64,000 nt of DNA from Pseudoflavonifractor sp. 60 (lineage in GTDB: Bacteria; Bacillota; Clostridia; Oscillospirales; Oscillospiraceae). The translations under genes and the position numbers were made by a program. A model generated the notes under the pieces. The model was not told where the DNA came from. It made no database searches and was given only the letters and a program-made list of their open reading frames with translations. The stretch's first letter is position 1; each line of letters begins with the position of its first letter. The stretch spans positions 1 through 64,000 of the forward strand of contig NZ_QWKI01000077.1 of assembly GCF_009911645.1 (NCBI RefSeq). Reading direction: 5' to 3'. Of the stretch, positions 32,389 through 47,510 are shown piece by piece.

Positions 32389-33552
32389 ATGTCCAAGGAG
32401 TTGATCCGCCTGGCCAACTGCACCATGGCGTTCGACGAGGATATCGTACTCGACAAAATCAATTTAAGCATCAAGGATAAGGAATTCCTCACACTGCTCG
32501 GGCCCAGCGGGTGCGGCAAGACAACCACGCTCAGAATCATTGGTGGTTTTCAGACGCCTACCGCTGGAGATGTATGGTTCGACGGGGTGAGGATTAATGC
32601 TGTCCCGCCCCACAAGCGGACCATCAACACGGTCTTCCAGAAATACGCCCTGTTCCCGCACCTGAACGTGTATGAGAACATCGCCTTTGGCCTGCGCATT
32701 CCCAAGGCGGACGCCAGCGGGAAGAAGGTCAAGCTCCCCGAGGAGGAGATCGACCAGCGGGTTACCGAGATGCTGGAGATCGTCAACCTCCGGGGTTTCG
32801 ACAAGCGGCGGATCACCCAGCTCTCCGGCGGTCAGCAGCAGCGGGTCGCCATTGCCCGGGCGCTGGTCAACCGGCCCAAGGTGCTGCTGCTGGACGAGCC
32901 CCTGGGGGCGCTGGACTTAAAGCTGCGCAAGGATATGCAGAATGAACTCAAGCGCATCCAGAAGGCCATGGAGATCACTTTCATCTATGTGACCCACGAC
33001 CAGGAGGAGGCCCTGGCCATGTCCGACACGGTGGTGGTGATGGACGCGGGCAAGATCCAGCAGATTGGCAGCCCGGAGGATATTTACAACGAGCCCCAAA
33101 ACGCCTTTGTGGCCGACTTCATCGGGGAGTCCAACATCATCGACGGCATTATGCGCAGCGACGGGGTCGTAGAGATCTTCAACCGCAGATTTCACTGCCT
33201 GGACGGGGGCTTCGACAGGGACGAGCCGGTGGACGTGGTCATCCGCCCCGAGGACGTGGACATTGTCCCCGAGGACCAGGGCCAGCTGAAGGGGACAGTG
33301 ACCTCCGTCACCTTCAAGGGGATGCAGTACGATATCATTGTGGATTTCTATGGCTTCAAGTGGCTGATCCAGACCACCGACCTGTCCCCGGTGGGCAGCC
33401 GCATCGGCATCAAGATCGACCCCGACGGTATCCACGTGATGAAGAAGAGCGAGTACTCCGGCATATTCGGCGACTACTCCTCCTACTCCGAGGAGTACGA
33501 GGAGATCACCAGCTTTGAGCCGGATGAGGAGGAGCGCGGAGATGAAGAGTAG
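32389..33552 (+). CDS. potA: Spermidine/putrescine ABC transporter ATPase
   Basis: PotA drives polyamine import. The 387-residue protein has Walker [19 protein letters not shown] (about 36-53), the Q-loop [12 protein letters not shown], signature [15 protein letters not shown], Walker [13 protein letters not shown] and switch [17 protein letters not shown]-type C-terminal domain ([12 protein letters not shown]) and an acidic tail ([17 protein letters not shown]) follow. GGGGGAGG sets the ATG. Its end overlaps the potB start by 11 bases. Confidence 0.94.
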
Positions 33553-34423
33553 ACTTTCCGGGTTCGCCGTCCCCTATGTGGTGTGGATGGCTCTGATGGT
33601 GGTCATCCCCATCCTCATTATGGTTGTGTACGCCTTCACCACGTCGGAGTTTGAGGGCACACTGGAAAATTTTGCTGAGATGGGGGTCTACGCCTCCGTC
33701 TTTACGCGCTCCTTCCGGCTGGCGCTGATTGCCACGCTGGTATGTCTGCTCATCGGCTATCCGGTGTCCTACTGGATGGCCCACGAGGGTCCGGGCTTCC
33801 AGCGGGTTGCAATGGCGCTGATCATGCTCCCCATGTGGATGAACTTCCTTCTGCGCACCTACTCCTGGATGTCCATCCTGGAGAACAACGGCCTGCTGAA
33901 TCAGCTGTTCCGGAATATCGGCCTGGTGGATGTGTATAATCAGATTGCTGTTCGCTTTGCCGCCGACCCGGCGCTCTATAAGCCCACCGACTATATCCCC
34001 ATCATCGGCACCTCCGGGGCGGTGGTGCTGGGGATGGTGTACAACTACCTGCCCTTTATGATCCTGCCCATCTACTCGGTCATCGTCAAGCTGGACCACT
34101 CCCTGCTGGAGGCCGCCCGGGACCTGGGCGCCGACAGCCGGCGGGTGTTCCGGAAGGTGATCCTGCCCCTGTCCCTACCCGGGGTCCTGTCCGGAGTTAC
34201 CATGGTGTTCGTCCCCTCCGTGTCCACCTTTGCCATCTCCCGCCTGCTGGGCGGCGGGACTCAGCTGATGCTGGGAGACTTGATTGAACAGCAGTTCCTG
34301 GGCGGCGCCTACAATCCCCACCTGGGGGCGGCCATCTCCATGGTGATGATGGTCATTGTGGTAGTGTGTATGGTGGTGATGAATCGCTTCGGTGAGGGCG
34401 AGGAACAGGCGGTGATGCTATGA
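33542..34423 (+). CDS. potB: Spermidine/putrescine ABC permease
   Basis: This 293-residue permease has six membrane segments, starting [25 protein letters not shown]. It carries the ABC-permease EAA loop ([31 protein letters not shown]) that contacts PotA. The ATG at 33542 lies inside the end of potA behind GGAGGAG. Its stop overlaps the potCD start by 4 bases (ATGA). Confidence 0.93.
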
Positions 34424-36423
34424 AAAAGCAAAACCGTCTGGGCAGCCGGCTGCTCATTGGACTGATGTTCCTGTTCCTCTATGCCCCCATCCTTCTGTTG
34501 ATCGTATTCTCCTTCAACGCGGGGGACTCCAGCGCCGTGTGGAAGGGCTTTTCCCTCCACTGGTATGGAAAGCTGTTCCAGAACCGGCTGATTATGGAGA
34601 GCGTCTATACTACTCTGCTGGTCTCCCTGCTGGCCACCGCCATTGCCACAGCGGCGGGCACCTTTGCCGCCATCGGTCTGTACAGTCTGGGCCGGAAAAA
34701 GCGGGAGGCTCTGCTCACTGTGAACAACATCCCCATGATGAACGCCGACATTGTCACCGGCGTCAGCCTGTGCCTGTTCTTCGTGGCCTTCTTCCAGGGC
34801 TGGGGGACCTTTGCTAGGTGGTTTAACGACCTTCAGAGCGTGGTGGAGCTGCCGGAACGGCTGGTACTGGGCTTTGGGACCCTGCTGCTGGCCCATGTGT
34901 CCTTCAACATCCCCTACGTCATCCTCAACGTGGCCCCCAAGCTGCGCCAGATGGACCGGAACCTGATGGACGCGGCCCAGGACCTGGGCTGCACCTGGAT
35001 GCAGGCCTTCTGGAAGGTGATGCTGCCGGAGATCAAGCCGGGGATCGTGTCCGGGGCCCTTATCGCCTTCACCATGTCCATTGACGACTTTATTATCTCC
35101 TACTTTACCGCCGGGTCGGCCAGCTCCACCCTGGCCATGACCATCTACGGCATGACCAAGAAGCGGGTCACCCCGGAGATCAACGCGGTTTCCACTTTGC
35201 TGTTCCTGTCGGTGCTGGTGCTGCTGGTGCTGTCCAACCTGAAGGAAGTCCGCGCGGAGGCCCGGAGCCGGAAAGGGGCGGCCCACCGGTCCACCGCTCT
35301 GGAGAAGCTGGGACAGAGGATTGCGGAGCCCCGCTTCCGCTGGGTTCGCCGGGGGACGGCGGCGGCGCTGGCCTGCGCCTTCCTTTTCACTGTGGTGGTG
35401 CTGGCCAAGGAGACCGGCTCCCGTCCGGTGGTCAATGTGTGCTCCTGGGGGGAGTATATTGACGAGGACCTGATAACCCAGTTTGAGGACACCACCGGCA
35501 TTCGGGTCAACTACCAGACCGCCGAGAGCAACGAGACTCTGTACTCCCTGCTGAAAAGCGGCGGCGCGGACTACGACGTGGTGGTCCCCTCTGACTATAT
35601 GATTGGCCGCCTGATTCAGGAGGACATGCTGGACAAGCTGGACTACAGTCAGATTCCCAATTTCTCCCTGATTGACGACCGGTTCAAGCATCTCTCCTAC
35701 GACCCCGCCAACGAGTACACCGTGCCCTACGCCTGGGGGACTTTGGGCATCATCTACAACACCGCCATGGTGGAGGAGGAGATCACCAGCTGGAGCGCCC
35801 TCTATGACGACCGGTACGCCGGCAATGTGCTGCTGATCAACAACTCCCGGGACGCCCTGGGGGAGGCACTGCTCTATCTGGGCTACTCGGTCAACACCAC
35901 CGACGAGGGGGAGATCCGCCAGGCCTATGAGCTGGTGGCTGACGCCAACCGCCGGGGCGTGTTCCAGGGCCGGGTTATGGACGAGGTATTGCAGAAGATG
36001 GAGGGGGGCAACGCTGCCATTGCCACCTACTACGCTGGTGACTATATCTCCATGCTGGAGAACAACGAGGACCTGGCCTTTGTCATCCCGGAGGAGGGCT
36101 CCAACTGGTTTGTGGACGCCATGTGTATGCTCAAGGACGCCCCCCACCAGAAGGAGGCCCATATGTGGATGAACTTTATCGCCTCCACAGAGTCTAATCT
36201 GATGAATATGGACTACATCGGCTATGCCTCCCCCAACCGGGAGGCGCTGGAGCGGTACCCCGCCTACTACGAGGAACTGTACGGCGAGGAGCTGGAGCCC
36301 GAGATCTACGATATCATGGTCACGCCCCCCGAGATCCTGGAGCGCTGCGAGGCCTACCTCAACCTGCCCGCCGCGACGCTGAATCTGTACAACACCCTCT
36401 GGACCCAGATGGGCGTGAATTGA
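34420..36423 (+). CDS. potCD: Fused polyamine permease and binding protein (PotC-PotD)
   Basis: One 667-residue protein joins two subunits normally encoded separately. Residues 1 to about 285 are PotC-like permease with six segments and the EAA loop LMDAAQDLGCTWMQAFWKVMLPEIKPGIVSG. A basic linker and a transmembrane anchor (about 307-328, AAALACAFLFTVVVLA) follow. The rest is a PotD-like substrate-binding domain (VNVCSWGEYIDEDLITQFEDTTGI, YDVVVPSDYMI, VPYAWGTLGIIYN, WMNFIASTESN). The binding domain lacks its own signal peptide or lipobox and is tethered through the anchor. The open frame is uninterrupted, so the fusion is real. Confidence 0.93.
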   Translation: MKKQNRLGSRLLIGLMFLFLYAPILLLIVFSFNAGDSSAVWKGFSLHWYGKLFQNRLIMESVYTTLLVSLLATAIATAAGTFAAIGLYSLGRKKREALLTVNNIPMMNADIVTGVSLCLFFVAFFQGWGTFARWFNDLQSVVELPERLVLGFGTLLLAHVSFNIPYVILNVAPKLRQMDRNLMDAAQDLGCTWMQAFWKVMLPEIKPGIVSGALIAFTMSIDDFIISYFTAGSASSTLAMTIYGMTKKRVTPEINAVSTLLFLSVLVLLVLSNLKEVRAEARSRKGAAHRSTALEKLGQRIAEPRFRWVRRGTAAALACAFLFTVVVLAKETGSRPVVNVCSWGEYIDEDLITQFEDTTGIRVNYQTAESNETLYSLLKSGGADYDVVVPSDYMIGRLIQEDMLDKLDYSQIPNFSLIDDRFKHLSYDPANEYTVPYAWGTLGIIYNTAMVEEEITSWSALYDDRYAGNVLLINNSRDALGEALLYLGYSVNTTDEGEIRQAYELVADANRRGVFQGRVMDEVLQKMEGGNAAIATYYAGDYISMLENNEDLAFVIPEEGSNWFVDAMCMLKDAPHQKEAHMWMNFIASTESNLMNMDYIGYASPNREALERYPAYYEELYGEELEPEIYDIMVTPPEILERCEAYLNLPAATLNLYNTLWTQMGVN

Positions 36424-36502: not shown

Positions 36503-37690
36503 TTAGAATTCCAGGTTCTTGCCGTCCTTGTTGAAGACGTGGCAGACGTTGCCGCTGAAGGTGAGGTTGAGCTTATCACCGCGGTGGAAGGAGTCGATGT
36601 GCTCGCCGTTGGCATCCATCGTGGGCACGATGACCACCACGTCCTTGCCGTCGGCATTGGCGTGGAAGTGGACCTCGGAGCCCATCATCTCGGAGACCTC
36701 GACAGTGGCGGTGAGGGTGTTCCCCGCCTGCTTGGCCAGCACCATGTGGCTGGGACGCACACCCAGGGTGATATCCTGAGCCGCCACCTTGTGGGCCGCC
36801 AGATTTTTCTGCTTCTCGGCGGACAGCTCCACCTTGCAGCCGCCCACGGAGACGAAGTACTTGCCGCCCTCGCTGAGCAGCTTGGCGTTGAAGAAGTTCA
36901 TCTGCGGCATTCCGATGAAGCCCGCAACAAAGATGTTAGCGGGGTGGTCAAAGACCTCCTGAGGAGTGCCAATCTGCTGGATGTAGCCGTCCTTCATAAT
37001 AACGATCCGGTCACCCAGAGTCATGGCCTCGGTCTGGTCATGGGTGACGTAGATGAAGGTGGTGTTGATCTTCTGACGCAGCTTGATAATCTCGGCCCGC
37101 ATCTGATTACGCAGCTTGGCGTCCAGGTTGGACAGAGGCTCATCCATCAACAGCACCTTGGGCTCGCGGACGATGGCGCGACCGATGGCCACACGCTGAC
37201 GCTGGCCGCCGGACAGAGCCTTGGGCTTCCGGTCCAGATACTGGGTGATGTCCAGGATCTCGGCGGCTTCCTTCACGCGGCGGTCGATCTCGCCCTTGTC
37301 CATCTTGCGCAGCTTGAGGGGGAAGGCCATGTTCTCGTACACGGTCATATGGGGATAGAGCGCGTAGGACTGGAACACCATGGCGATGTCCCGGTTCTTG
37401 GGCTCCACGTCGTTGACCAACTTGCCGTCAATGTACAGCTCGCCGCCGCTGATCTCCTCCAGACCGGCCACCATCCGCAGAGTGGTGGACTTGCCGCAGC
37501 CGGAGGGGCCGACCAGCACGATGAACTCCTTGTCGGCGATGTCCAGGTTGAACTGCTGGACCGCGATGACACCCTGGTCCGTGATCTGAAGATTGGTCTT
37601 CTTCTCAGGCTCGCCCTTCTTCTTGGCTTTCTTCTGGTCTCCGCTGTGGGGGTAGATTTTGGTGATGCCCTTCAGATTCAGTGTTGCCAT
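36503..37690 (-). CDS. ugpC: Carbohydrate ABC transporter ATPase (MsmK/UgpC/MalK type)
   Basis: This 395-residue ATPase energises CUT1-type sugar importers. It has Walker [19 protein letters not shown]-loop [12 protein letters not shown], signature [15 protein letters not shown], Walker [13 protein letters not shown] and the C-terminal TOBE/regulatory region with [11 protein letters not shown] Lys-rich insertion (about 17-32, [18 protein letters not shown]) follows the first strand. No Shine-Dalgarno sequence is visible before the ATG. It is downstream of nagA and probably serves the binding protein and permeases of the same cluster, perhaps others too. Confidence 0.92.
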
Positions 37691-37916
37691 TTGCGTTCGG
37701 CTTTGATGGAGCGGCCTCCGCCGTCACCATCTCGTCCTGCGGGAGCGAAACCCGCAGGAACTTTACGACAGGTCTCCACACTGCCGCACCGCAAGCCGCG
37801 GCGGTTTTTTTCCTCCTTTTGTTTGGTGCCGGGCACTATAGTGATGGAGTAGTGTCCCGACCCGTGGATTATATTTGGAAAGGCGGGCGGACCCGCCCGT
37901 TCCAACAGAGAGGATG
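37691..37916 (-). other. nagA-ugpC intergenic leader with hairpins
   Basis: This 226-base gap holds a 7-bp GC hairpin soon after the nagA stop and an 8-bp perfect hairpin CCTGCGGG/CCCGCAGG (37736-37743 with 37751-37758) about 45 bases before the ugpC start. There is a TATAAT-like patch near 37871, but no well-spaced promoter was found. An AGGAGG near 37810-37820 has no sensible start codon after it. Confidence 0.4.
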
Positions 37917-39050
37917 TCAGACCTCCGCCGTCTGACCTTTGAAGAGGATTGTCCGGATGGACAGATCCTTCTGTTCCAGCAGGACCAGGCTGGCCTCCTT
38001 GCCCACATCCAGCGTACCAGCCCGGTTGTCAATGCCGATGGACTGGGCAGGATTGTAGGTACAGGCCCGCACCGCGTCGGCCAGCGGGATCCCGAAGGCC
38101 ACCGCCTGGCGCAGGCAGCCCATCAGGCTGGTGACGGAGCCGGCCAAGGTCTCCGGGTGGTCCAGGATGGTGGCCCGGTTGCCGTGGACCTCGATCATCT
38201 GTCCGCCGAAGGGATACTCCCCGTCGGGCATACCGGTGGCCCGGAGGGAGTCGGAAATGAGGATCATCCTCTCCTTTCCAAAGAGACCAAAGGTGAGCCG
38301 GACCACGCCGCCGTGGATATGGATGCCATCGCAGATCAGCTCGGGCTGGACGGCGGGATTTTCCCAGGCCGCACCAATCACGCTGGGCTCCCGGTGATGC
38401 AGGCCAGGCATACCGTTGTACAGATGGGTCGCGTGGCTGGCCCCCGCCTCGAAGGCGGCCTTGGCGGTGTTGTAGTCCGCCACAGTGTGGCCCACCGAGA
38501 CGGTAATGCCCATATCCACAGCGGCCTTGATAAACTCCATAGCTCCGGGCTGCTCGGGGGCCACCGTCACCAGCTTGACACAGCCCTCTGCCGCCTGCTG
38601 GAGGCGCTGGAGCATGGGGATGTCGGGGTCGTGGAGGTAGTCGGCGTTCTGCGCCCCCTTCTTGGCAGTACACAGGAAGGGACCCTCCAGATGGAGACCC
38701 ACCACCTCCGCGCCGCCGGAGTTCTTGGCCCGGTGGGCGGCGGTGTTTTTGCAGATGGCGGTAAGCTGGTCCTCGGGCAGGGTCATGCCTGCGGGACAGA
38801 TATAGGTGACGCCCTGGGACAGCTCGTAGTCGGCAATTTTTTGCAGGCCGTCAGGGGTTGCGTCGCTGAAATCCTCCCCCACGCAGCCGTGGAAGTGGAC
38901 GTCCACCAGTCCGGGGATGACATAGCAGCCGCTGGCGTCCAGCAGTTGGCCGTCGCCGTTGGACTGGGAAATCAGGGGACCGTTGGTGCAGAGGTCCCGG
39001 GGCGTGAATCCCTGTTCCAGGTCAAAGACCAGTCCGCCGGTAATTCTCAT
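37917..39050 (-). CDS. nagA: N-acetylglucosamine-6-phosphate deacetylase
   Basis: NagA deacetylates GlcNAc-6-phosphate. The 377-residue amidohydrolase has VIPGLVDVHFHGCVGEDFSD, HLEGPFL, SVGHTVADYNTA, HATHLYNGMPGLHHREP and the catalytic Asp region ILISDSLRATGMPDGEYPFGG. Its ATG overlaps the nagB stop (ATGA), so the two are co-translated. With nagB it feeds amino sugars into glycolysis as fructose-6-phosphate. Confidence 0.95.
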   Translation of the reverse strand: MRITGGLVFDLEQGFTPRDLCTNGPLISQSNGDGQLLDASGCYVIPGLVDVHFHGCVGEDFSDATPDGLQKIADYELSQGVTYICPAGMTLPEDQLTAICKNTAAHRAKNSGGAEVVGLHLEGPFLCTAKKGAQNADYLHDPDIPMLQRLQQAAEGCVKLVTVAPEQPGAMEFIKAAVDMGITVSVGHTVADYNTAKAAFEAGASHATHLYNGMPGLHHREPSVIGAAWENPAVQPELICDGIHIHGGVVRLTFGLFGKERMILISDSLRATGMPDGEYPFGGQMIEVHGNRATILDHPETLAGSVTSLMGCLRQAVAFGIPLADAVRACTYNPAQSIGIDNRAGTLDVGKEASLVLLEQKDLSIRTILFKGQTAEV

Positions 39051-39793
39051 AGGGCGACCCCCGCAGCAATCAGCTTGCTCAGCGCCGCCTCGTCGGCCAC
39101 CAGCACCACGTTGGGATGGAGCTGGAGAATAGAGCCGGGGCAGTTGGGCGTGATGGGTCTGCAGACGGAGCGGTAAACGGCGTCTGCCTTCTCCTCACCG
39201 CTGGCGCACAGCAGCACCTTTTTGGCCCCCATAATGGCACCGATGCCCATACTCAAAGCCTGCTTGGGCACATCGTCCCGGGTTGCGAAGAAGCGGGCGT
39301 TGGCGTCGATGGTGCTCTCGGCCAGGTCCACCACGTGGGTCTCCTTGATGAAGCAGTCCCCCGGCTCGTTAAAGCCGATGTGGCCGTTGCGGCCGATGCC
39401 CAGCAGCTGGAGGTCCACATAGCCCAGAGAGCGGATGTAGGCATCGTACTGGGCGCACTCGGCGTCGGAGTCGGCGGCCAGGCCGTCGGGGACCCGGGTG
39501 TTTTCAGGGCAGATGTCCACGTGGTCAAAGAGGTTGGACTGCATAAAGTAGCGATAGCTCTGGTCGTGGTCGGGAGCCAAGCCCTTGTACTCGTCCAGGT
39601 TGACGCTGCGCACGTCCTTAAAGCTGAGGAGACCTTGCTTGTACCAGTCCACCAGGCACTTGTAAGCCCCTTCGGGAGTGGAGCCGGTGGCCAGGCCCAG
39701 GATACAGTTGGCCTTGTGGACCACCTCGGCAGCAATGACCTGGGCGGCCCGACGGCTCATAGCGTCATAGTCCTTCTCACGGTAAATAATCAT
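39047..39793 (-). CDS. nagB: Glucosamine-6-phosphate deaminase
   Basis: NagB converts glucosamine-6-phosphate to fructose-6-phosphate and ammonia. The 248-residue protein has LGLATGSTPEGAY, VNLDEYKGL, LLGIGRNGHIGFNEPG and SMGIGAIMGAKKVLLCASG, all diagnostic. AGGAGG eight bases before the ATG at 39793 rules out the upstream open-frame start. It follows the sugar permease genes by 68 bases and overlaps nagA. Confidence 0.96.
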   Translation of the reverse strand: MIIYREKDYDAMSRRAAQVIAAEVVHKANCILGLATGSTPEGAYKCLVDWYKQGLLSFKDVRSVNLDEYKGLAPDHDQSYRYFMQSNLFDHVDICPENTRVPDGLAADSDAECAQYDAYIRSLGYVDLQLLGIGRNGHIGFNEPGDCFIKETHVVDLAESTIDANARFFATRDDVPKQALSMGIGAIMGAKKVLLCASGEEKADAVYRSVCRPITPNCPGSILQLHPNVVLVADEAALSKLIAAGVAL

Positions 39794-39860
39794 AATACAT
39801 TCCTCCTTTATTATTGTAATATGAACAGCCAGTATTTTCAAGTATTGTTTGAAAGAAAAT

Positions 39861-40703
39861 TTATCCCTTTACACCGCCGGAGGCCAGACCGCTGACCAGA
39901 TTCTTCTCGATGCACATAAACAGGATGACCACCGGGATAATGGCGAAGATGGAGGCGGCGAACAGATACTGCCACTCGATCATGTTGTAGCCGTTAAAGG
40001 TGTTGATGCCCACGGTGAGGGGCTTGAGGGTATCGGTGGAGATGAGGCACAGGGCCACGGTGTACTCGTTCCAGGCGTTGATGAAGATGAAAATCAGGGT
40101 CGTGACGATGCCGGGGGCGGCCACCGGCAGGAGCACCTTAATCATGGACTGGATGCGGTTGCAGCCGTCGATGGTGGCGGCCTGCTCCATATCCGCCGAG
40201 ATGCCCATAAAGGTGCCCCGGAGCAGCCAGATGGTGAAAGCCTGATTAAAGGCGGCGTTGATGAAGATCAGGCCCCAGAGGCTGTCCGTCAGGTGGAGGA
40301 CCTGCATCACCTGGTAGATACCGATGAGCAGCACCACCGGGGCGAACATCTGGGAGACGATGACAAAGCCCAAAAAGGCGGTCTGCCCCTTGAACTTCAT
40401 GCGGGACAGGGCATAGGCGGCGGGGATGCCACACAGCATGGCGATGATGGTGGAGCCGCTGGCGATAAGCAGGGAGTTGAGCATATACTTTGCCATGGGG
40501 GCGCGGCTCCAGATGTCAATGAAGTTGGACCACAGAGCGGTGACGGGCAGAATGGTATCGCCAGAGAAAATCTCAACCCGATTTTTCAGGGCGGTACACA
40601 GCATGGCGAAGTAGGGATACAGGGTTATGACGCACACGTCCAGCACCACAAAGTAGAGCAGCAGGCGCAGGACCACCTTTTTCAGGGAGAGGGGCTTTTT
40701 CAC
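39861..40703 (-). CDS. Carbohydrate ABC permease (MalG/UgpE-like)
   Basis: This 280-residue permease has six membrane segments and the C-terminal EAA loop (MEQAATIDGCNRIQSMIKVLLPVAAPGIVTT), typical of the second permease of CUT1 sugar transporters. Its start overlaps the stop of the first permease by 4 bases (ATGA at 40703-40700). Substrate is not readable from the permease; the nag genes beside it suggest an N-acetylhexosamine-containing sugar. Confidence 0.93.
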   Translation of the reverse strand: MKKPLSLKKVVLRLLLYFVVLDVCVITLYPYFAMLCTALKNRVEIFSGDTILPVTALWSNFIDIWSRAPMAKYMLNSLLIASGSTIIAMLCGIPAAYALSRMKFKGQTAFLGFVIVSQMFAPVVLLIGIYQVMQVLHLTDSLWGLIFINAAFNQAFTIWLLRGTFMGISADMEQAATIDGCNRIQSMIKVLLPVAAPGIVTTLIFIFINAWNEYTVALCLISTDTLKPLTVGINTFNGYNMIEWQYLFAASIFAIIPVVILFMCIEKNLVSGLASGGVKG

Positions 40704-41662
40704 AGTTCCTCATCTCCTTTCCGCAGGGTGTAGATCATGTACACACTGGCGCACATCAGCAGGATGATAAAGCCGATCACTGAGACGGCGGACGCCTCGC
40801 CCTGCTTGCCGTTATAGAAGGCCAGCTTATAGAGGTAGGTGACCAGGGTGTCGGTGCGGTTGGCGGGGTCACCCTTGGTCATGGTCCAGATGATGGGGAA
40901 GGAGTTGAACACGTAGATAATGTTCAGCACGGTGGACACCGTCAGGGAGGACTTCACCAGAGGCAGGGTGATGCTGAACAGTTTCTGGAAGTAGCCCGCT
41001 CCGTCCACGGTGGCGGCCTCGTAGTAAGATGCGTCGATGCTCTGCAGTCCTGACAGCACGCAGAAGCAGACGAAGGGGATGGTGACAAAGATGCCGCAGG
41101 CGATTTCCCAGGCGAAATAGGCCGTGGGAGTGGGGGTGAAGTTGATGGACGCGTTCTTGCCGATGATGTGCAGGGTCCGCAGCAGGGTGTTCAGCGTTCC
41201 GTAGTCCTTATTGATGATGAAGTTCCACGCGCTGGCCTGGATGACCAGGGTCGTGGCCCAGGGGAAGACCACAATCGCCCGGGCCACTTTGCGTCCCTTG
41301 AACTGGTTGTTGAGGATCAGGGCCAGGATGAAGCCCAGCAGGGTTGAGATGAGCACCACGGCGATGGTCCAGAGGATGGTGTTTTTCAGCACAATGGAGA
41401 AAGCGGGGTCCTTGATGACCGAGGTGAAGTTTTCAAAATTGTTGAAGCCCTTCAGCTTGCCTGCCCGGGTCACCCTGTTCATGGACAGCTGGAACACCTT
41501 GAAGATAGGGGTCACAATGAAAATAGCCATCAGGATAATGCTGGGAGCAATCCAGATATAAGGCTCGATGGTGCGCAGCAGCTTTTTGTTTTGGGGGTTG
41601 GGCAGACGGGGCTCTTGCTGGGTCTTTTTTGTCGTGGGGGCTGCCGGGGTTTTTGTACTCAC
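40700..41662 (-). CDS. Carbohydrate ABC permease (MalF/UgpA-like)
   Basis: This 320-residue permease has a basic, Pro/Lys-rich cytoplasmic N-terminus (about 1-30) and six membrane segments. The EAA loop is YYEAATVDGAGYFQKLFSITLPLVKSSLTVS. It pairs with the next permease gene, which it overlaps. It is separated from the binding-protein gene by 148 bases that hold two strong hairpins. Confidence 0.93.
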   Translation of the reverse strand: MSTKTPAAPTTKKTQQEPRLPNPQNKKLLRTIEPYIWIAPSIILMAIFIVTPIFKVFQLSMNRVTRAGKLKGFNNFENFTSVIKDPAFSIVLKNTILWTIAVVLISTLLGFILALILNNQFKGRKVARAIVVFPWATTLVIQASAWNFIINKDYGTLNTLLRTLHIIGKNASINFTPTPTAYFAWEIACGIFVTIPFVCFCVLSGLQSIDASYYEAATVDGAGYFQKLFSITLPLVKSSLTVSTVLNIIYVFNSFPIIWTMTKGDPANRTDTLVTYLYKLAFYNGKQGEASAVSVIGFIILLMCASVYMIYTLRKGDEEL

Positions 41663-41690
41663 GGAGACACCTCCTTAAATCGTTGAGCGC

Positions 41691-41780
41691 CTTCCGGCCG
41701 TTTTCCAAAGGCGAATTGCGCTGCCGTCCTTGGAAAACGGCTGGAAGAGCCGGGGGGCCGGGCCGTTGTGGCCCGGCCCC
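41691..41780 (-). terminator. Two intercistronic hairpins after binding-protein gene
   Basis: One 18-bp stem (41691-41708 with 41730-41747, one mismatch) and one perfect 11-bp GC stem (41754-41764 with 41770-41780) lie between the binding-protein stop and the first permease. No T-run follows. Such hairpins commonly stabilise or partly terminate mRNA so that the binding protein is made in excess. Confidence 0.6.
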
Positions 41781-41810
41781 GCGGTCGTTTACGAGCAGAG
41801 TTGGGGAAAC

Positions 41811-43130
41811 TTAGCCGGCAATCTTCGCCTGGAGTGCGTCCAGCAGCTCCTTGACATTGCCGCCCAGAAGGGCCTGCTGCTCCACGTCGATCACGCCCTG
41901 CTTCACGTCGGCCCACTCGGCCTTAGCGGTGGGATAGAACTTGCAGGAGCCCACGATCTCAACCCAGGGAGCCATGGAGGGGTCGGACGCAGCCACGATC
42001 TCGCCGCCGGCGGAGGTAGCGGGCAGGAAGCCCTCCATCAGGACCCAGTTGGAGTAGCGGGTATCCTCATAGAAGAAGTCAAAGAACTCCTTGATGGCCT
42101 CGATCTTCTCGGCAGAGTCCTCGTTGTCAAAGACCATGAAACGGTCCATAACGCCGGCGGAGACGGAGGCGTTGCCGCCGTTGGAGGGGATGGCGGCGAA
42201 GGCGTAGTTGATCTGCTCCTCCTCGGGGGTGTTGGCCTTGGCGTAGTTGTCAGCGATGTAGGTGGGGATGGAGTTGGGGCCGATGACCATGGCCAGCTTG
42301 CCGGCGCCGAACAGGTCCTGGAGGTTGTAGCGGGTCTCGGTGGCGGGGTCGGTGTTGGTGTAGCCGGCATTGTACAGGCCGATGGCGTACTCAATGGCCT
42401 CCACGTTCTTGTCAGCGTTCAGGGTCCAGTTGCCCTCGGCGTCGGTAAAGTCGCTGCCGTTGTTCCAGATATAGTAAGCGAAAGCGGCCTGACCCTCGTC
42501 GGTGGTCATGTCGATGCCCCAGGGATAGATGGTGGAGTCGTACTCCTTGATCTTCTTGCAGGCCTCGGTCAGCTCATCCCAAGTGGTGGGCACTGCCACT
42601 CCGGCGGCGTCCAGGATATCCTGGTTATAGTACATAGCGCGGGCGGAGGCCAGGTCGGGGATGGCCCAGATGGTGCCGTCGATGTTGGACTGCTCCAGGA
42701 AAGCGGGGTACATCTTGGCGTAGGTCTCGGGGGAGACGCACTCCTGGATGGGCAGGAGCAGGTCGTCGGCCACGTAGTCGGCGAACACGTCAATGTTCAG
42801 AATGTCGGGGGCGTCGTTATTGGAGACGCGGGTATTGACCACAGTGTAAATGTCGTTCCAGGAGACAACCTCCACCGTCAGGTCGATGCTGTCGTGGCTG
42901 CCGTTAAACTCCGTCTGGAAGTCGGCCCACCACTGCTTGGTGTTCTGGCCATACTCCGCAGCGATGACCTTAATGGCGGTCTTGTCGCCGCCGCCGGAGG
43001 GCGCGGGATCGGAGGCACCGGCGCCGCCGCCGGCAGAGGAACCGCCGCCGTTGCTGTTGTTTCCGCCGCCGCAGGCGACCAGGGAAAGGGCCATAGCTGT
43101 GGCAAGTAAGGCTGCAAGAACTTTCTTCAT
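41811..43130 (-). CDS. Carbohydrate ABC transporter substrate-binding lipoprotein
   Basis: The 439-residue extracellular binding protein has a lipoprotein signal peptide with lipobox LVAC (Cys20), then a Gly/Ser/Asn linker and a family 1 binding fold (VVSWNDIYTVVNTRVSNNDAPDILNID, GTIWAIPDLASARAMYYNQDILDAAGV). It captures the sugar for the two permeases downstream. AAGGAG at seven bases favours the ATG at 43130 over 43136. Upstream is a TATAAT and GTACG-containing repeats that may bind the neighbouring PocR-AraC regulator. Confidence 0.92.
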   Translation of the reverse strand: MKKVLAALLATAMALSLVACGGGNNSNGGGSSAGGGAGASDPAPSGGGDKTAIKVIAAEYGQNTKQWWADFQTEFNGSHDSIDLTVEVVSWNDIYTVVNTRVSNNDAPDILNIDVFADYVADDLLLPIQECVSPETYAKMYPAFLEQSNIDGTIWAIPDLASARAMYYNQDILDAAGVAVPTTWDELTEACKKIKEYDSTIYPWGIDMTTDEGQAAFAYYIWNNGSDFTDAEGNWTLNADKNVEAIEYAIGLYNAGYTNTDPATETRYNLQDLFGAGKLAMVIGPNSIPTYIADNYAKANTPEEEQINYAFAAIPSNGGNASVSAGVMDRFMVFDNEDSAEKIEAIKEFFDFFYEDTRYSNWVLMEGFLPATSAGGEIVAASDPSMAPWVEIVGSCKFYPTAKAEWADVKQGVIDVEQQALLGGNVKELLDALQAKIAG

Positions 43131-43211
43131 TTTCATTCTCCTTTTTGTCGATTTTGACCCTAGGGAACCGGATGCATAGAGATATTCCACAAATGCGTCC
43201 TTTCAAAAGCA

Positions 43212-43217
43212 ATTATA
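43212..43217 (-). promoter_or_regulatory. -10 box of sugar transporter operon
   Basis: A perfect TATAAT on the minus strand lies about 80 bases before the binding-protein ATG. No good -35 box is at the proper distance, which suits activator-dependent transcription. Confidence 0.55.
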
Positions 43218-43247
43218 CTTGTTCATTGTGTAAATCTATAGAGTGAA

Positions 43248-43299
43248 ACGTACAATTTATAGAAAAATCGTACAAACCGTGAATGTTCGTACGATTTTT
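43248..43299. promoter_or_regulatory. Repeated GTAC motifs upstream of transporter operon
   Basis: CGTACAA occurs at about 43249-43255 and 43269-43275, and TCGTACGA at about 43288-43295, 30-85 bases upstream of the -10 box. A similar TCGTACG is upstream of galE (47426-47432). They are candidate binding sites for the PocR-AraC regulator encoded between the two units. Confidence 0.4.
43263..43299 (-). terminator. Terminator after PocR-AraC gene
   Basis: AAAAATCGTAC pairs with GTACGATTTTT (11 bp, 15-nt loop). On the minus strand it is followed by TTTTTC, ending the galE-to-regulator transcript. The same bases contain two of the GTAC motifs. Confidence 0.65.
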
Positions 43300-43328
43300 T
43301 TGGTGTAAATTGACCTCTGGAAGAGGGT

Positions 43329-44168
43329 TCAGCCCAGATGCTGCTTGCGAAAGGCGCTGGGTGTGGTGCCGGTCATGGAGCGGAAGACCTTGGAAAAATA
43401 GTTGTAATCGCTGATGCCCACCTCCTCCGCAATGGCAGAGATGGGCAGACTGGTCTGCACCAGCAGACGCTGGGCAGCCTGAATGCGCCGCTGGGCAATC
43501 AGGTAGGACAGGGTATGGCCGCCGGACAGCTCCTTGGCCAGGATACACAGCTTGGTGCGTCCAATGTGCATCTCCTTGGAGATGGAGGCCAGGGAGAGCT
43601 TTTCCATGTAGTGCTCCTCCAGGTACAGCGCCAGCTTTTGCAGGTCGGTCTGCTCCGTGGCCCGGATCATCCCCTTCAGCTGGATATAGGCGGACAGGGC
43701 CTCCAGAGTCTCGGTGTAGGCGTGGATCTCCACCTGGGAGTACTGGCGGAACTGGAAGAAGGCGTCCCTCAGCGCGTCGGGGCCGTCGGGCCACCAGTCC
43801 AGCAGGGCCCGGGTGTGCTCCCACTGCTCCTCCACGGGGGTGTCGTCCAGATAGCACCCCACCGCCAGGTAGGCCAGGGGATTTTTCTTGTCGTAGAGGG
43901 GCATAATGGCCTCGCAGATACCCAGATGACAGCGGTAGAACTGAAAGCCCTGCTCCGCCGTGTAGTGGCGGATCTTGCACTGGTCGCAGGCGACACAGCG
44001 CTCGTGTCCCTCGGGCAGGTCATTGACGGCCCGGCAGAAGGGGGGATGGCCGCGAAACAGGTTGATATCCCGGCCCTCCGGGTCCAGGATGTTGGCGGGA
44101 AGACCGGTGAGAATCTTCAAATTGGCAATCAGCTTGCGCAGCTGCTCTTCATCAAAGAGAATGTTCAT
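43329..44168 (-). CDS. PocR-domain AraC-family regulator
   Basis: Residues about 5-160 form a PocR-type ligand-binding domain (LANLKILTGLPANILDPEG, CDQCKIRHYTAEQGFQFYRCHLGICEAIMPL), with Cys pairs CVAC and CDQC. The C-terminal 100 residues are an AraC double helix-turn-helix (LSLASISKEMHIGRTKLCILAKEL, ISAIAEEVGISDYNYFSKVFRSMTGTTPSAFR). The start overlaps the NahK gene stop (ATGA). It probably senses a sugar intermediate and activates the transporter-nag operon directly downstream. Confidence 0.9.
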   Translation of the reverse strand: MNILFDEEQLRKLIANLKILTGLPANILDPEGRDINLFRGHPPFCRAVNDLPEGHERCVACDQCKIRHYTAEQGFQFYRCHLGICEAIMPLYDKKNPLAYLAVGCYLDDTPVEEQWEHTRALLDWWPDGPDALRDAFFQFRQYSQVEIHAYTETLEALSAYIQLKGMIRATEQTDLQKLALYLEEHYMEKLSLASISKEMHIGRTKLCILAKELSGGHTLSYLIAQRRIQAAQRLLVQTSLPISAIAEEVGISDYNYFSKVFRSMTGTTPSAFRKQHLG

Positions 44169-45277
44169 TTCTGATATTGTCCCGTGATGGCCTCCAATTC
44201 AGCCCAGTGGGCCTCCATATCCGCAACCAGCTTAAACTGGGTCCGGCAGCGGTCCAGGTTATGCCCCTCCCGGGCGATATGGAAGTAGACGTCCCCTTCC
44301 AGATGGTCTGTAAGGAAGCGCATCCCGCACTCCAGGGTCATCAGCTTGGCCCCCCAGGGGAGATAGGCGATCTCCTCTCCGGTGAGGGAGCCGCCGGTCC
44401 CCTCCAGGAAAGCGGCGGTGTAGGCGGCGAAAAGGTCTATGTCCAGATTGACCTTGGACAGGTCGGTCTCGTCCTCGGCGCAGTGGTTGGCCCCGAAGCG
44501 GATAGAGTCGCCGAAGTCGTAGAGCACCAGGCCGGGCATCACGGTGTCCAGGTCAATGATGCACTTACCCTCGCCAGTCTCCTCGTCCATGAGGACGTTA
44601 TTCAGCTTGGTATCATTGTGGGTGACCCGCAGAGGCAGCTTCCCGGCCCGCATGGCGTCCAGGGCCACCGAACAGTCCTTCTCCCGGGCCAGGACAAAGT
44701 CGATCTCTGCTTGGCAGCCCGCCGCCCGGCCCAGCCGGTCCGCCTCCACGGCGGCCTTGAACTTGGCCAGCCGGTCCTCGGTGTTGTGAAAATTGGGGAT
44801 GGTCTCATACAGGGTCCCGGCGGGGTAGTCCTTCAAAAGCTGCTGGAACCGGCCAAAGGCCCGGCCGGAGGCGGCGAAGAGCTCCGGGGTGTCCGCCGAC
44901 TGATAGCAGATGGTGTGCTCCACAAAGTGGTACAGCCGCCAGGCGCCCCCCTGGCTGTCGGTGTAGTAGTCCTGACCGTTTTTGGGGCGGAGGACCTCCA
45001 TGGCCTCCCGGCTGCGGTCGCCCCCCCGAGCCTCAATCTGCCGGCCCAGGTACTCGGTGACGCCGATGATGTTCTCCATCAGCTGGTCGGGCCGCTTAAA
45101 GGCGGCGGCGCTCATTCGCTGGAGGATGAACCGGCGGCAGCACATATTTTCCGGCTGGGTGTGGACCACAAAGGTGTCGTTGATGTGGCCGTGGCCGTAC
45201 CGGATGGCCCCCACCACGGGCGCGCCGAAGTCAAAGGCCTCCAATACCTCCTGGAGGGTCTGCTCTGCCTGGACCAT
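44165..45277 (-). CDS. nahK: N-acetylhexosamine 1-kinase (NahK-like)
   Basis: This 370-residue protein-kinase-fold (APH) enzyme closely matches, from memory, bifidobacterial NahK, which phosphorylates C1 of GlcNAc and GalNAc with ATP. Shared stretches include GHGHINDTF, GGAWRLYHFVEHTI, the catalytic loop LRVTHNDTKLNNVLMD, the metal-binding IIDLDTVMPG, YDFGDSIRFGA and LTLECGMRFLTDHLEGDVYF. GGAGGTG supports the ATG at 45277, whose first base is the last base of the preceding nucleotidyltransferase stop (TGATG). The neighbouring nucleotidyltransferase and galE complete an activation route to UDP-HexNAc. Confidence 0.87.
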   Translation of the reverse strand: MVQAEQTLQEVLEAFDFGAPVVGAIRYGHGHINDTFVVHTQPENMCCRRFILQRMSAAAFKRPDQLMENIIGVTEYLGRQIEARGGDRSREAMEVLRPKNGQDYYTDSQGGAWRLYHFVEHTICYQSADTPELFAASGRAFGRFQQLLKDYPAGTLYETIPNFHNTEDRLAKFKAAVEADRLGRAAGCQAEIDFVLAREKDCSVALDAMRAGKLPLRVTHNDTKLNNVLMDEETGEGKCIIDLDTVMPGLVLYDFGDSIRFGANHCAEDETDLSKVNLDIDLFAAYTAAFLEGTGGSLTGEEIAYLPWGAKLMTLECGMRFLTDHLEGDVYFHIAREGHNLDRCRTQFKLVADMEAHWAELEAITGQYQK

Positions 45278-46200
45278 CACTTCACCTCCCACAGCCGGTC
45301 GGGGTAGAGGCCCGAGGCGGTCTTCTCGGCAATGGCGGCCACCACGGCGGGCTTATCCTCCCGATAGGTGACGCCGTACCACTTGTCATGACTGCGCAGC
45401 ACCTTCACCCGGGCCCTGCCCTCCCCGATGAGCTGGCTGACCACGGTGGGCAGGAAGTACTCCCCCTTCTCGGGGTTTTCCGCCAGGGCCCTGTCCAAAA
45501 AGGCGGGGAAGCGGGCCAGGGCCTCATCCAGAAAGCTGCGGTTGAAGCCCCACAGGTTCAGCGAGACGATGGTGTCCTCGGGCAGCTGGGTCCAGGTCTG
45601 CCCGTCGTCCTCGGTGAAGCGCAGGGGCGGCCCCTGCTCAATCTTGGTGCGCTCGGTGATCTGGGAGAGATAGTGGTCCCCAGTCTCCTCGCACACCCCC
45701 CGGGCCACGGTGCCGTTTTCGGTGACGGTGTTTTTCAGCAGATAGCCCACCATCACATACTCATACACATCCCCGTCCGGGTTAGCGGAGAGGTAGTCAA
45801 AGATCTTTTGAAAGGCCTCCGGGCCGTAGTAGTCGTCGGCGTTGATGACCGCGAAGGGACCGTCGATGAGCTTCCGGGCGGCCAGGGTTGCGTGGGCGGT
45901 GCCCCAGGGCTTGCTCCGGCCGGCGGGGACTGAGTAGCCCTGGGGCAGGTCCTCCTTCAGCTGATAGGCGTACTTTACTTCCATCACCTGGGACACCCGG
46001 TCGCCGATGGCAGACTTGAAATCGGCCTCGATCTCGGGCTTGATGACGAAGATCACCGTCTCAAACCCCGCCCGGCGGGCGTCAAAAATGGAGTAGTCGA
46101 TGATAAGCTGGCCGTGGTTCCCCACCGGGTCCAGCTGCTTGAGACCGCCGTACCGGCTGCCCATGCCAGCGGCCATGATAACGAGAACAGGCTTGTTCAC
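45277..46200 (-). CDS. Sugar-1-phosphate nucleotidyltransferase
   Basis: This 307-residue NTP-transferase fold protein has the N-terminal signature VLVIMAAGMGSRYGGLKQLDPVG, the divalent-metal NADDYYG, and SLNLWGFNRSF. It is related to UTP-glucose-1-phosphate uridylyltransferases but of the family often found beside nahK and galE. In this setting it most likely converts the HexNAc-1-phosphate made by the kinase to a UDP-sugar; the sugar and nucleotide are inferred. The start is a GTG at 46200 behind AGGAGG. Confidence 0.82.
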   Translation of the reverse strand: MNKPVLVIMAAGMGSRYGGLKQLDPVGNHGQLIIDYSIFDARRAGFETVIFVIKPEIEADFKSAIGDRVSQVMEVKYAYQLKEDLPQGYSVPAGRSKPWGTAHATLAARKLIDGPFAVINADDYYGPEAFQKIFDYLSANPDGDVYEYVMVGYLLKNTVTENGTVARGVCEETGDHYLSQITERTKIEQGPPLRFTEDDGQTWTQLPEDTIVSLNLWGFNRSFLDEALARFPAFLDRALAENPEKGEYFLPTVVSQLIGEGRARVKVLRSHDKWYGVTYREDKPAVVAAIAEKTASGLYPDRLWEVK

Positions 46201-46297
46201 AGTCTGTTGTCCTCCTTAAAATAATATCATATGGGTTGTATGTATGGCGGGTCGATTCGGCCCGCCCCTGTTTCAGATCAGCTGTCTCCCGGGGGAT

Positions 46298-47317
46298 TTA
46301 GCCCTTGTAGCCGTTGGGATTCATGGACTGCCACTTCCAGGAGGAGGCGCACATCTCCTCGATGCCCAGCTGCGCCTCCCAGCCCAGCTCCTCCCGGGCC
46401 TTGGCGGGGTCGGCGTAGCAGGCGGCAATGTCGCCGGGACGGCGGGCCTCGATGACATAGGGCAGCTGGTGGCCGCAGGCCTTCTCATAGGCGTGGAGCA
46501 CGTCCAGCACGGAGTAGCCCTTGCCGGTGCCCAGGTTGCACACAAACAGACCGCAGCCGGTGTCCAGCTTCTTCAGCGCCGCCACGTGGCCCTTTGCCAG
46601 GTCCACCACGTGGATATAGTCCCGCACGCCGGTGCCGTCGGGGGTGTTGTAGTCGTTTCCGTAGACGTGGACCTTCTCCAGCTGGCCCACCGCCACCTTG
46701 GCGATATAGGGCACCAGGTTGTTGGGGATGCCGTTGGGGTCCTCGCCGATGAGGCCGGATTCGTGGGCGCCGATGGGGTTAAAGTAGCGCAGCAGAGCAA
46801 CATTCAGGGTCGGATCGGCGGCGCAGATGTCCATGAGCATTTTTTCCTGGAACAGCTTGGTGGTGCCGTAGGGATTGGTGGTGCCGCCGGTGGGGAAGTC
46901 CTCCCGGATGGGAACGGTGGCGGGATCGCCGTAGACGGTGGCGGAGGAGGAGAAGACGAAGTTCTTGACTCCGTGGCGGCGCATGGCCTGGAGCAGGTAC
47001 AGGGTGCTGATGAGGTTGTTGGAGTAGTACTCCAGGGGCTTGGATACGCTCTCGCCCACGGCCTTCAGCCCGGCGAAGTGGATCACCGCGTCAATGTCGG
47101 GGTGCTTGGCGAACAGGGCCTCCACCTCGGCCTCATTGCACAGCTCCGTCTTGAGGAAGGGGACCTTCTTTCCGGTGATCTTCTCAACCCGGACCAGCGC
47201 CTCCTCACAGGAGTTGTAGAGGTTGTCGGCCACTACGATCTCGTAGCCCGCCTGAAGAAGCTCCACACAGGTATGGCTGCCGATATAACCGGCGCCGCCG
47301 CAGACAAGAATGGACAT
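46298..47317 (-). CDS. galE: UDP-glucose 4-epimerase
   Basis: GalE interconverts UDP-Glc/UDP-Gal, and often UDP-GlcNAc/UDP-GalNAc. The 339-residue Rossmann protein has GGAGYIGSHTCVEL, the catalytic SSSATVYG and NPYGTTK (Ser-x-Tyr-x3-Lys pattern), and RYFNPIGAH. The ATG at 47317 follows AAAGGAGCG; the longer open frame upstream crosses the promoter region. It is the first gene of galE-nucleotidyltransferase-nahK-pocR/araC, which suggests it serves amino-sugar epimerisation. Confidence 0.95.
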   Translation of the reverse strand: MSILVCGGAGYIGSHTCVELLQAGYEIVVADNLYNSCEEALVRVEKITGKKVPFLKTELCNEAEVEALFAKHPDIDAVIHFAGLKAVGESVSKPLEYYSNNLISTLYLLQAMRRHGVKNFVFSSSATVYGDPATVPIREDFPTGGTTNPYGTTKLFQEKMLMDICAADPTLNVALLRYFNPIGAHESGLIGEDPNGIPNNLVPYIAKVAVGQLEKVHVYGNDYNTPDGTGVRDYIHVVDLAKGHVAALKKLDTGCGLFVCNLGTGKGYSVLDVLHAYEKACGHQLPYVIEARRPGDIAACYADPAKAREELGWEAQLGIEEMCASSWKWQSMNPNGYKG

Positions 47318-47397: not shown

Positions 47398-47510
47398 TAG
47401 ACGATTTCACCAATAATCTGGAATATCGTACGTCAATTTGACTATTTTTATAGTTCCGGGGAGGGATGGGGTACCGCCAGCAAAAGTTTAACGGAATCCG
47501 GATTTGACCG

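Follow-up and report, generated by a model that had tools for sequence, protein, structure and literature searches.

Galacto-N-biose (GNB) and lacto-N-biose (LNB) are handled in bifidobacteria by the lnp pathway, which comprises GltABC, the GH112 protein LnpA, the kinase LnpB (NahK), the GalT-type enzyme LnpC, and the epimerase LnpD (GalE) (PMC6668579, PMC9599254, PMC4252021). In the passages cited here, the literature places this pathway in bifidobacteria and in Roseburia (PMC7335108), and a kinase related to NahK has been described in Bacteroides thetaiotaomicron (PMC11992087). In this study, we analyzed a cluster of ten genes encoding a NahK homologue, GalE, a nucleotidyltransferase (NTase), NagA, NagB, a PocR-type regulator, an ABC importer, and a MalK-type ATPase. 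It lies within a stretch of 64,000 nucleotides from Pseudoflavonifractor sp. 60 (hereafter the window; contig NZ_QWKI01000077.1, labelled C138, of the draft genome GCF_009911645.1). The cluster is likely to be the amino-sugar half of a GNB/LNB phosphorylase pathway that is split over two loci, because the same genome encodes a GH112 phosphorylase and a GNB/LNB-type importer, NahK and GH112 co-occur in related genomes, and the two operons are neighbours in several relatives.

Results

An earlier note on the window, made from the sequence alone, described the cluster as lacking any phosphorylase or glycosidase and proposed that it works instead of the GNB/LNB pathway. The first statement is correct for the cluster itself, as no phosphorylase or glycosidase family was found among its ten proteins (Pfam, E <= 0.001, and the NCBIfam families listed), and none of the ten matched a GalT-type enzyme (LnpC) in Pfam. 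It does not hold for the genome. A search for GH112 gave one match, full length and scoring 721.6 bits, on contig C66 and not on C138 (G000:C66:23864-25159), by which the idea of a genome without a phosphorylase was rejected. The encoded protein contains three LBP (lacto-N-biose phosphorylase) domains and matches a solved lacto-N-biose phosphorylase in the PDB with E 2.3e-216. The proposal that the cluster replaces the GNB/LNB pathway is not supported, given this gene, the presence of NahK in nearly all GH112 genomes, and the position of GH112 beside nahK-galE in relatives.

On C66, genes for a binding protein and two permeases precede GH112 and a chemoreceptor gene follows it. The best solved match of the binding protein is 9H0N (E 5.7e-118), which is Blon_0883, a protein reported to bind GNB and fucosylated LNB (PMC12345172). 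All seven direct GNB/LNB contacts of Blon_0883, as given in section 6 of that paper (G47, T205, Y208, D210, W290, E294, and E327), are kept in the C66 protein, whereas the fucose-site residues F44, S100, and T101 are changed. Therefore, GNB and LNB are its expected ligands, and fucosylated forms are less likely. Galactose 1-phosphate (Gal-1-P) would have a standard route, since the only GalT match in the genome (PF01087, on C198) lies beside a frame read as galK. At L085:12196-14004, a methyl-accepting chemotaxis protein is encoded directly behind GH112, and chemotaxis to the GH112 disaccharide is possible.

The ten genes of the cluster have the order, strand, and outer coordinates (36503-47317) that the earlier note gave. 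Its features are as follows.

46298..47317, minus strand: galE, UDP-hexose/UDP-N-acetylhexosamine (UDP-HexNAc) 4-epimerase; passes the cut-off of two GalE models
45277..46200, minus strand: nucleotidyltransferase (NTase) of the 3PNN type, GTG start; Pfam NTP_transferase
44165..45277, minus strand: nahK, N-acetylhexosamine (HexNAc) 1-kinase; PDB 4WH1/4OCJ, E 3.5e-100; PF01636 (APH family)
43329..44168, minus strand: pocR, AraC-family regulator with a PocR sensor; PF10114 and HTH_18
41811..43136, minus strand: CUT1 solute-binding lipoprotein; SBP_bac_1, with a match to the NgcE model below cut-off
40700..41662, minus strand: CUT1 permease 1; BPD_transp_1
39861..40703, minus strand: CUT1 permease 2; BPD_transp_1
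39047..39793, minus strand: nagB, glucosamine-6-phosphate deaminase; TIGR00502, 273 bits, above cut-off
37917..39050, minus strand: nagA, N-acetylglucosamine-6-phosphate deacetylase; TIGR00221, 320 bits, above cut-off
37685..37868, minus strand: malK-I RNA, leader of the ATPase gene; RF03069, 134 bits, E 6.1e-26
36503..37690, minus strand: MalK/UgpC-type ATPase; the only match in the genome above the NF008653 cut-off
47420..47432, minus strand: candidate operator CGTACGATATTCC upstream of galE, from the promoter-motif analysis
43262..43274, minus strand: candidate operator TGTACGATTTTTC upstream of the binding-protein gene, from the promoter-motif analysis

The starts of the binding-protein gene and nagB were set by eye; the searches used starts at 43142 and 39799, two codons longer. 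Translational coupling up to pocR, claimed in the note for galE, the NTase gene, and nahK, is borne out for the NTase gene and nahK (1-bp overlap) and for nahK and pocR (4-bp overlap), but galE is not coupled to the NTase gene because 97 bp lie between them. Similarly, the importer genes, nagB, nagA, and the ATPase gene do run in one direction, but the last is found 226 bp past nagA and has its own malK-I leader.

Residues 4-366 of NahK align to solved HexNAc 1-kinases (E 3.5e-100, phmmer), a full-length homology that agrees with its description as a close NahK homologue. For GalE, the best solved match is the Bifidobacterium longum enzyme (6K0G-6K0I, E 1.7e-146), whose C2 and C5 pockets are made by Asn200 and Cys299, residues that allow UDP-HexNAc to bind (PMC6668579). 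Because the equivalents of both residues, counted by hand on the alignment, are kept in the window GalE, epimerization of UDP-GalNAc by this enzyme is supported, although not proven. Homology thus favors part of the route drawn in the note, namely phosphorylation of HexNAc at C-1 and the supply of UDP-HexNAc; the alternative exit to NagA and NagB is one that we infer. The same matches bear on another explanation, in which the anomeric kinase acts mainly on a different sugar and the cluster serves a different glycoside. The window importer would leave room for it, as the model of its binding protein is similar to binders of several kinds (maltose-, sophorose-, and dinucleotide-type), and sequence and fold searches singled out no ligand. 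However, the close full-length match of the kinase to solved HexNAc 1-kinases and the HexNAc-type residues of GalE make this explanation very improbable.

The UgpC/MalK model NF008653 gave 73 matches in the genome, and only the window ATPase was above its cut-off. A scan of ten C66 proteins around GH112 showed no ATPase, and the ABC ATPases further from GH112 on C66 were all far below the cut-off. As the only MalK/UgpC ATPase above the cut-off, and one with its own malK-I leader, the window protein probably serves both importers. The malK-I RNA, a curated Rfam family, is also located between nagA and malK in two relatives (L001 and L003); none of the papers listed by one literature search was seen to deal with what it senses.

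Co-occurrence was evaluated in 150 family genomes, an even sample from a larger group, with some of the sampled genomes incomplete. NahK was found in 29 and GH112 in 11, with ten genomes having both, 19 NahK only, one GH112 only, and 120 neither; the association (Fisher 1.7e-7, or 7.8e-7 without the window genome) comes from related genomes that are not independent draws. In five of the ten genomes with both genes, nahK and GH112 are 2.2-8.1 kb apart, and in the other five, including the window genome, they are on separate contigs. Four of the linked genomes (L223, L224, L226, and L227) have nahK-(NTase)-galE divergent from an operon of binding protein, permease, permease, and GH112, with PocR-AraC-like stretches between the two; L227 follows this plan without an NTase at the locus, and the fifth (L225) has its own gene order.

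Relatives of the locus itself were also compared (80 loci retained of 96 found). The divergent plan recurs in L044, L056, and L065, and in Colidextribacter sp. OB.20 (L011) the order galE-NTase-nahK-pocR-importer is convergent with the GH112 operon. Oscillibacter sp. 1-3 (L019, G168) carries nahK and GH112 on one contig about 0.9 Mb apart, and both genes are present in Flintibacter muris. GH112 lies within the available sequence of ten of the 80 loci, many of which are short. On the genome level, where L001-L050 were covered and L051-L080 left out, it was found somewhere in 35 of 50 genomes. A quick, unrooted NahK tree of 42 rows required 7 changes between linked and unlinked states versus 12.5 in shuffles, and the unlinked rows gather in the part that contains the window; as the tree is unrooted, we can only infer that the splitting of nahK and GH112 is the derived state. 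In one family genome (G118:C1:36207-37314), nahK is broken into two pieces that do not share a frame, one of them with a TGA, due to either gene decay or an assembly error.

The promoters of galE and the binding-protein gene carry a common motif. A matrix was built from 22 distinct galE sites, with the threshold set at the 99% level of scores obtained after shuffling each set; the shuffles preserve base content only, and the scored sequences are related. Sites above the threshold were found in all 27 distinct upstream regions of the binding-protein gene and in 30 of 54 of galE (training sites included), compared with one of 17 for nagB, two of 16 for malK, one of 73 for the NTase gene, and none of 13 for C66-type importers, 47 for GH112, and 40 for pocR. 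The corresponding pattern, which was defined after the two window sites were known, occurs twice in the window and in none of 100 shuffles, and genome-wide it has eight matches (six outside the window) versus two for the reversed pattern. Among 54 galE loci, motif and pocR are both present in 22, the motif only in four, pocR only in ten, and neither in 18 (Fisher 3.2e-4, relatedness ignored); in one of the four motif-only loci the sequence stops at nahK, which would hide any pocR beyond it. PocR may be the protein that binds this motif.

Between pocR and the binding-protein gene, at about 43258-43300 of the window, there is a conserved inverted repeat (AATCGTACGAAC...GTTCGTACGATT in the consensus of the relatives). 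The candidate operator TGTACGATTTTTC sits inside this repeat just behind pocR, and the repeat could be an operator, a terminator, or both. Given the motif common to the two promoters, it is less likely that the two transcription units answer to unrelated sugars, an outcome that the earlier note had regarded as fatal to its proposal. A single regulon that joins both halves of the pathway through the galE motif was considered and rejected on the C66-type promoters (0/13). Upstream of the GH112-linked binding-protein gene, 13 loci (including L085, L044, and L192) have a conserved block, AGCAA.AT.TCTAAA.A....CGCAA, which is unlike the galE motif and likely implies another regulator.

The NTase matches 3PNN with E 4.6e-78, and, of the 50 entries listed for its model (pLDDT 92.7), the closest is 3PNN, followed by RmlA, UDP-glucose pyrophosphorylases, and GlmU. 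An enzyme of this type is the probable uridylylation step of the pathway; we encountered no characterized member of the 3PNN family in this analysis. The other NTP_transferase matches in the genome, two on C267 and one each on C161 and C194, are tentatively read as GlgC/GlgD, RmlA, and GlmU. The NTase is present in 88 of the 150 family genomes, including 25 of the 29 with NahK, and it directly adjoins nahK in 12 of these 25 (distances were measured for 14 pairs; of the other 11, the pair in G004 is about 18 kb apart and the rest are split between contigs). That it is dedicated to NahK was rejected, as 63 of the 88 genomes are without NahK. A recurring partner away from nahK was also sought and rejected. 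In 20 such loci, no specific partner occurred in more than two; there were six ABC-ATPase-like frames, and galE was near in two loci, in a crude survey that picked the longest frames and in several loci lost the NTase to a frame lying over it.

It is plausible, if not the likelier case, that the NTase is the organism's UDP-glucose pyrophosphorylase, a substitute for GalU that feeds GalT and GalE, with HexNAc 1-phosphates uridylylated by GlmU or GalT. Such a role is compatible with the split GNB/LNB pathway. No GalU above the TIGR01099 cut-off was found in this genome, and TIGR01099 is not among the three NCBIfam families that match the NTase itself. Among the 150 genomes, 17 have both NTase and GalU, 71 the NTase only, 29 GalU only, and 33 neither (Fisher 5.5e-4), a mutual avoidance which hints that the NTase replaced GalU. 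In addition, a profile of the NTase family (45 rows) retrieves GalU structures after 3PNN, and the lack of a specific partner away from nahK would suit a general enzyme. However, GalU is also present with 12 of 18 close orthologues (at least 70% identity), and the NTase is directly beside nahK in nearly half of the genomes with both. Furthermore, a GalU-like enzyme need not be specific for glucose, because E. coli GalU is listed as accepting GlcNAc-1-P and Gal-1-P (PMC13101873).

The window NTase may thus be a broad uridylyltransferase. We also considered a more elaborate version, in which a broad UTP-dependent sugar-1-phosphate uridylyltransferase replaces both LnpC and GalU and, together with GalE, carries GalNAc to GlcNAc-1-P in a reversible UTP/PPi shuttle, after which one of three phosphohexomutases would give GlcNAc-6-P for NagA. 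This version appears rather unlikely; if true, its mutase step would be one that PMC9599254 calls undescribed in prokaryotes. The earlier note was right that the cluster lacks a mutase, and a genome search gave three PGM/PMM-type candidates elsewhere, on C127, C192, and C267, which by reading alone are GlmM-like, PGM-like, and PMM-like, respectively. For what follows phosphorylation, the report on the GalNAc kinase of B. thetaiotaomicron speaks of 'downstream metabolism' (PMC11992087).

Adjacent to the cluster, on the plus strand, a 667-aa frame at 34420-36423 appears by eye to be a PotC-like permease joined to a PotD-like binding protein; it is preceded by frames at 32389-33552 and 33515-34423 that were assigned, also by eye, as a PotA-like ATPase and a PotB-like permease, respectively.

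Discussion

Several observations weigh against a split GNB/LNB pathway. In this genome, nahK and GH112 are not in one locus (C138 versus C66). GH112 was not found in 19 of the 29 NahK genomes or in 15 of the 50 genomes behind L001-L050, many of which are incomplete. Upstream regions of C66-type importers do not carry the galE motif, which leaves co-regulation of the two halves unsupported, although another common control is possible. Q98 and S163, through which Blon_0883 contacts its ligand by way of water, are changed in the C66 binding protein. The NTase, being without NahK in most of its genomes, is not dedicated to the pathway. Finally, PMC9599254 states that no prokaryotic enzyme has been described for the conversion of GlcNAc-1-P to GlcNAc-6-P.

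Some of these points would suit stand-alone scavenging of GalNAc and GlcNAc without GH112. The importer would take up free HexNAc, NahK, the NTase, and GalE would convert GalNAc to UDP-GlcNAc for the cell wall, and NagA and NagB would degrade GlcNAc-6-P supplied by another kinase. The NahK genomes without a GH112 match agree with this, as do the relatives of the locus, where a close pocR is present in 39 of 80 loci and a close nagB in 16 (at least 60% identity) compared with GH112 in only ten. The motif common to galE and the importer is also in its favor, and the NahK relative BT4240 of B. thetaiotaomicron serves free GalNAc (PMC11992087). However, NahK is present in 10 of 11 GH112 genomes, relatives have divergent GH112-importer and galE-nahK operons, and this genome has both GH112 and a GNB/LNB-type binding protein. 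Scavenging alone is therefore distinctly unlikely, and the split GNB/LNB pathway is the interpretation that we prefer.

In the split pathway, the C66 importer would bring in GNB or LNB, which GH112 would split with phosphate to Gal-1-P and GalNAc or GlcNAc. NahK would phosphorylate the HexNAc at C-1, the NTase would join HexNAc 1-phosphate, and probably hexose 1-phosphate as well, to UMP, and GalE would interconvert UDP-GalNAc with UDP-GlcNAc and UDP-Gal with UDP-Glc. The UDP-GlcNAc could enter the cell wall or, with the reaction reversed, give GlcNAc-1-P, from which a mutase would form the GlcNAc-6-P that NagA and NagB degrade. HexNAc or a HexNAc glycoside would enter through the second importer, that of the window, probably under the regulator of galE, and both importers would be powered by the MalK-type ATPase encoded behind the malK-I leader.

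Much of this is ordinary, a known pathway in split form; what deserves bench work is the NTase and the mutase gap. Nevertheless, a cluster that had seemed an orphan would now be one half of a pathway for mucin and milk sugars in Oscillospiraceae-like gut bacteria such as Flintibacter, Lawsonibacter, and Oscillibacter. With nagA and nagB near nahK, this compact gene set is also a place to study how GlcNAc-1-P enters catabolism. We found no publication describing the cluster with its NTase in a search of titles and the beginnings of abstracts, with many journals outside its coverage.

Among the described systems, BT4240 is, like NahK, an APH-family HexNAc 1-kinase for mucin sugars. It differs in belonging to a polysaccharide utilization locus (PUL) with Sus transport, GH2, and GH109, and the main text of PMC11992087 does not contain the terms 'epimerase', 'uridyl', or 'nucleotidyl'. 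The GH112 loci of Roseburia (PMC7335108) belong, as in the present case, to a clostridial gut bacterium, combine importer and GH112 in one locus, and have LNB and GNB as likely substrates; the main text of that paper contains neither 'nucleotidyl' nor 'epimerase'. With the lnp pathway, the genome shares GH112, NahK, a GalE with group-2-type residues, and a GNB/LNB-type importer, and nagA and nagB are present. LnpC is within the cluster in B. longum but not in B. breve, nor in the cluster studied here; in B. breve UCC2003, galT2 lies outside the galE-nahK-lnbP cluster (PMC4252021), and here, too, GalT is elsewhere in the genome. In contrast to the lnp pathway, GH112 and its importer lie apart from galE-nahK, the nearest solved relative of the GH112-side binding protein is Blon_0883 instead of GltA, and a 3PNN-type NTase stands beside nahK. 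The regulators also differ, since this cluster has a PocR-AraC protein where B. infantis uses NagR (PMC9599254).

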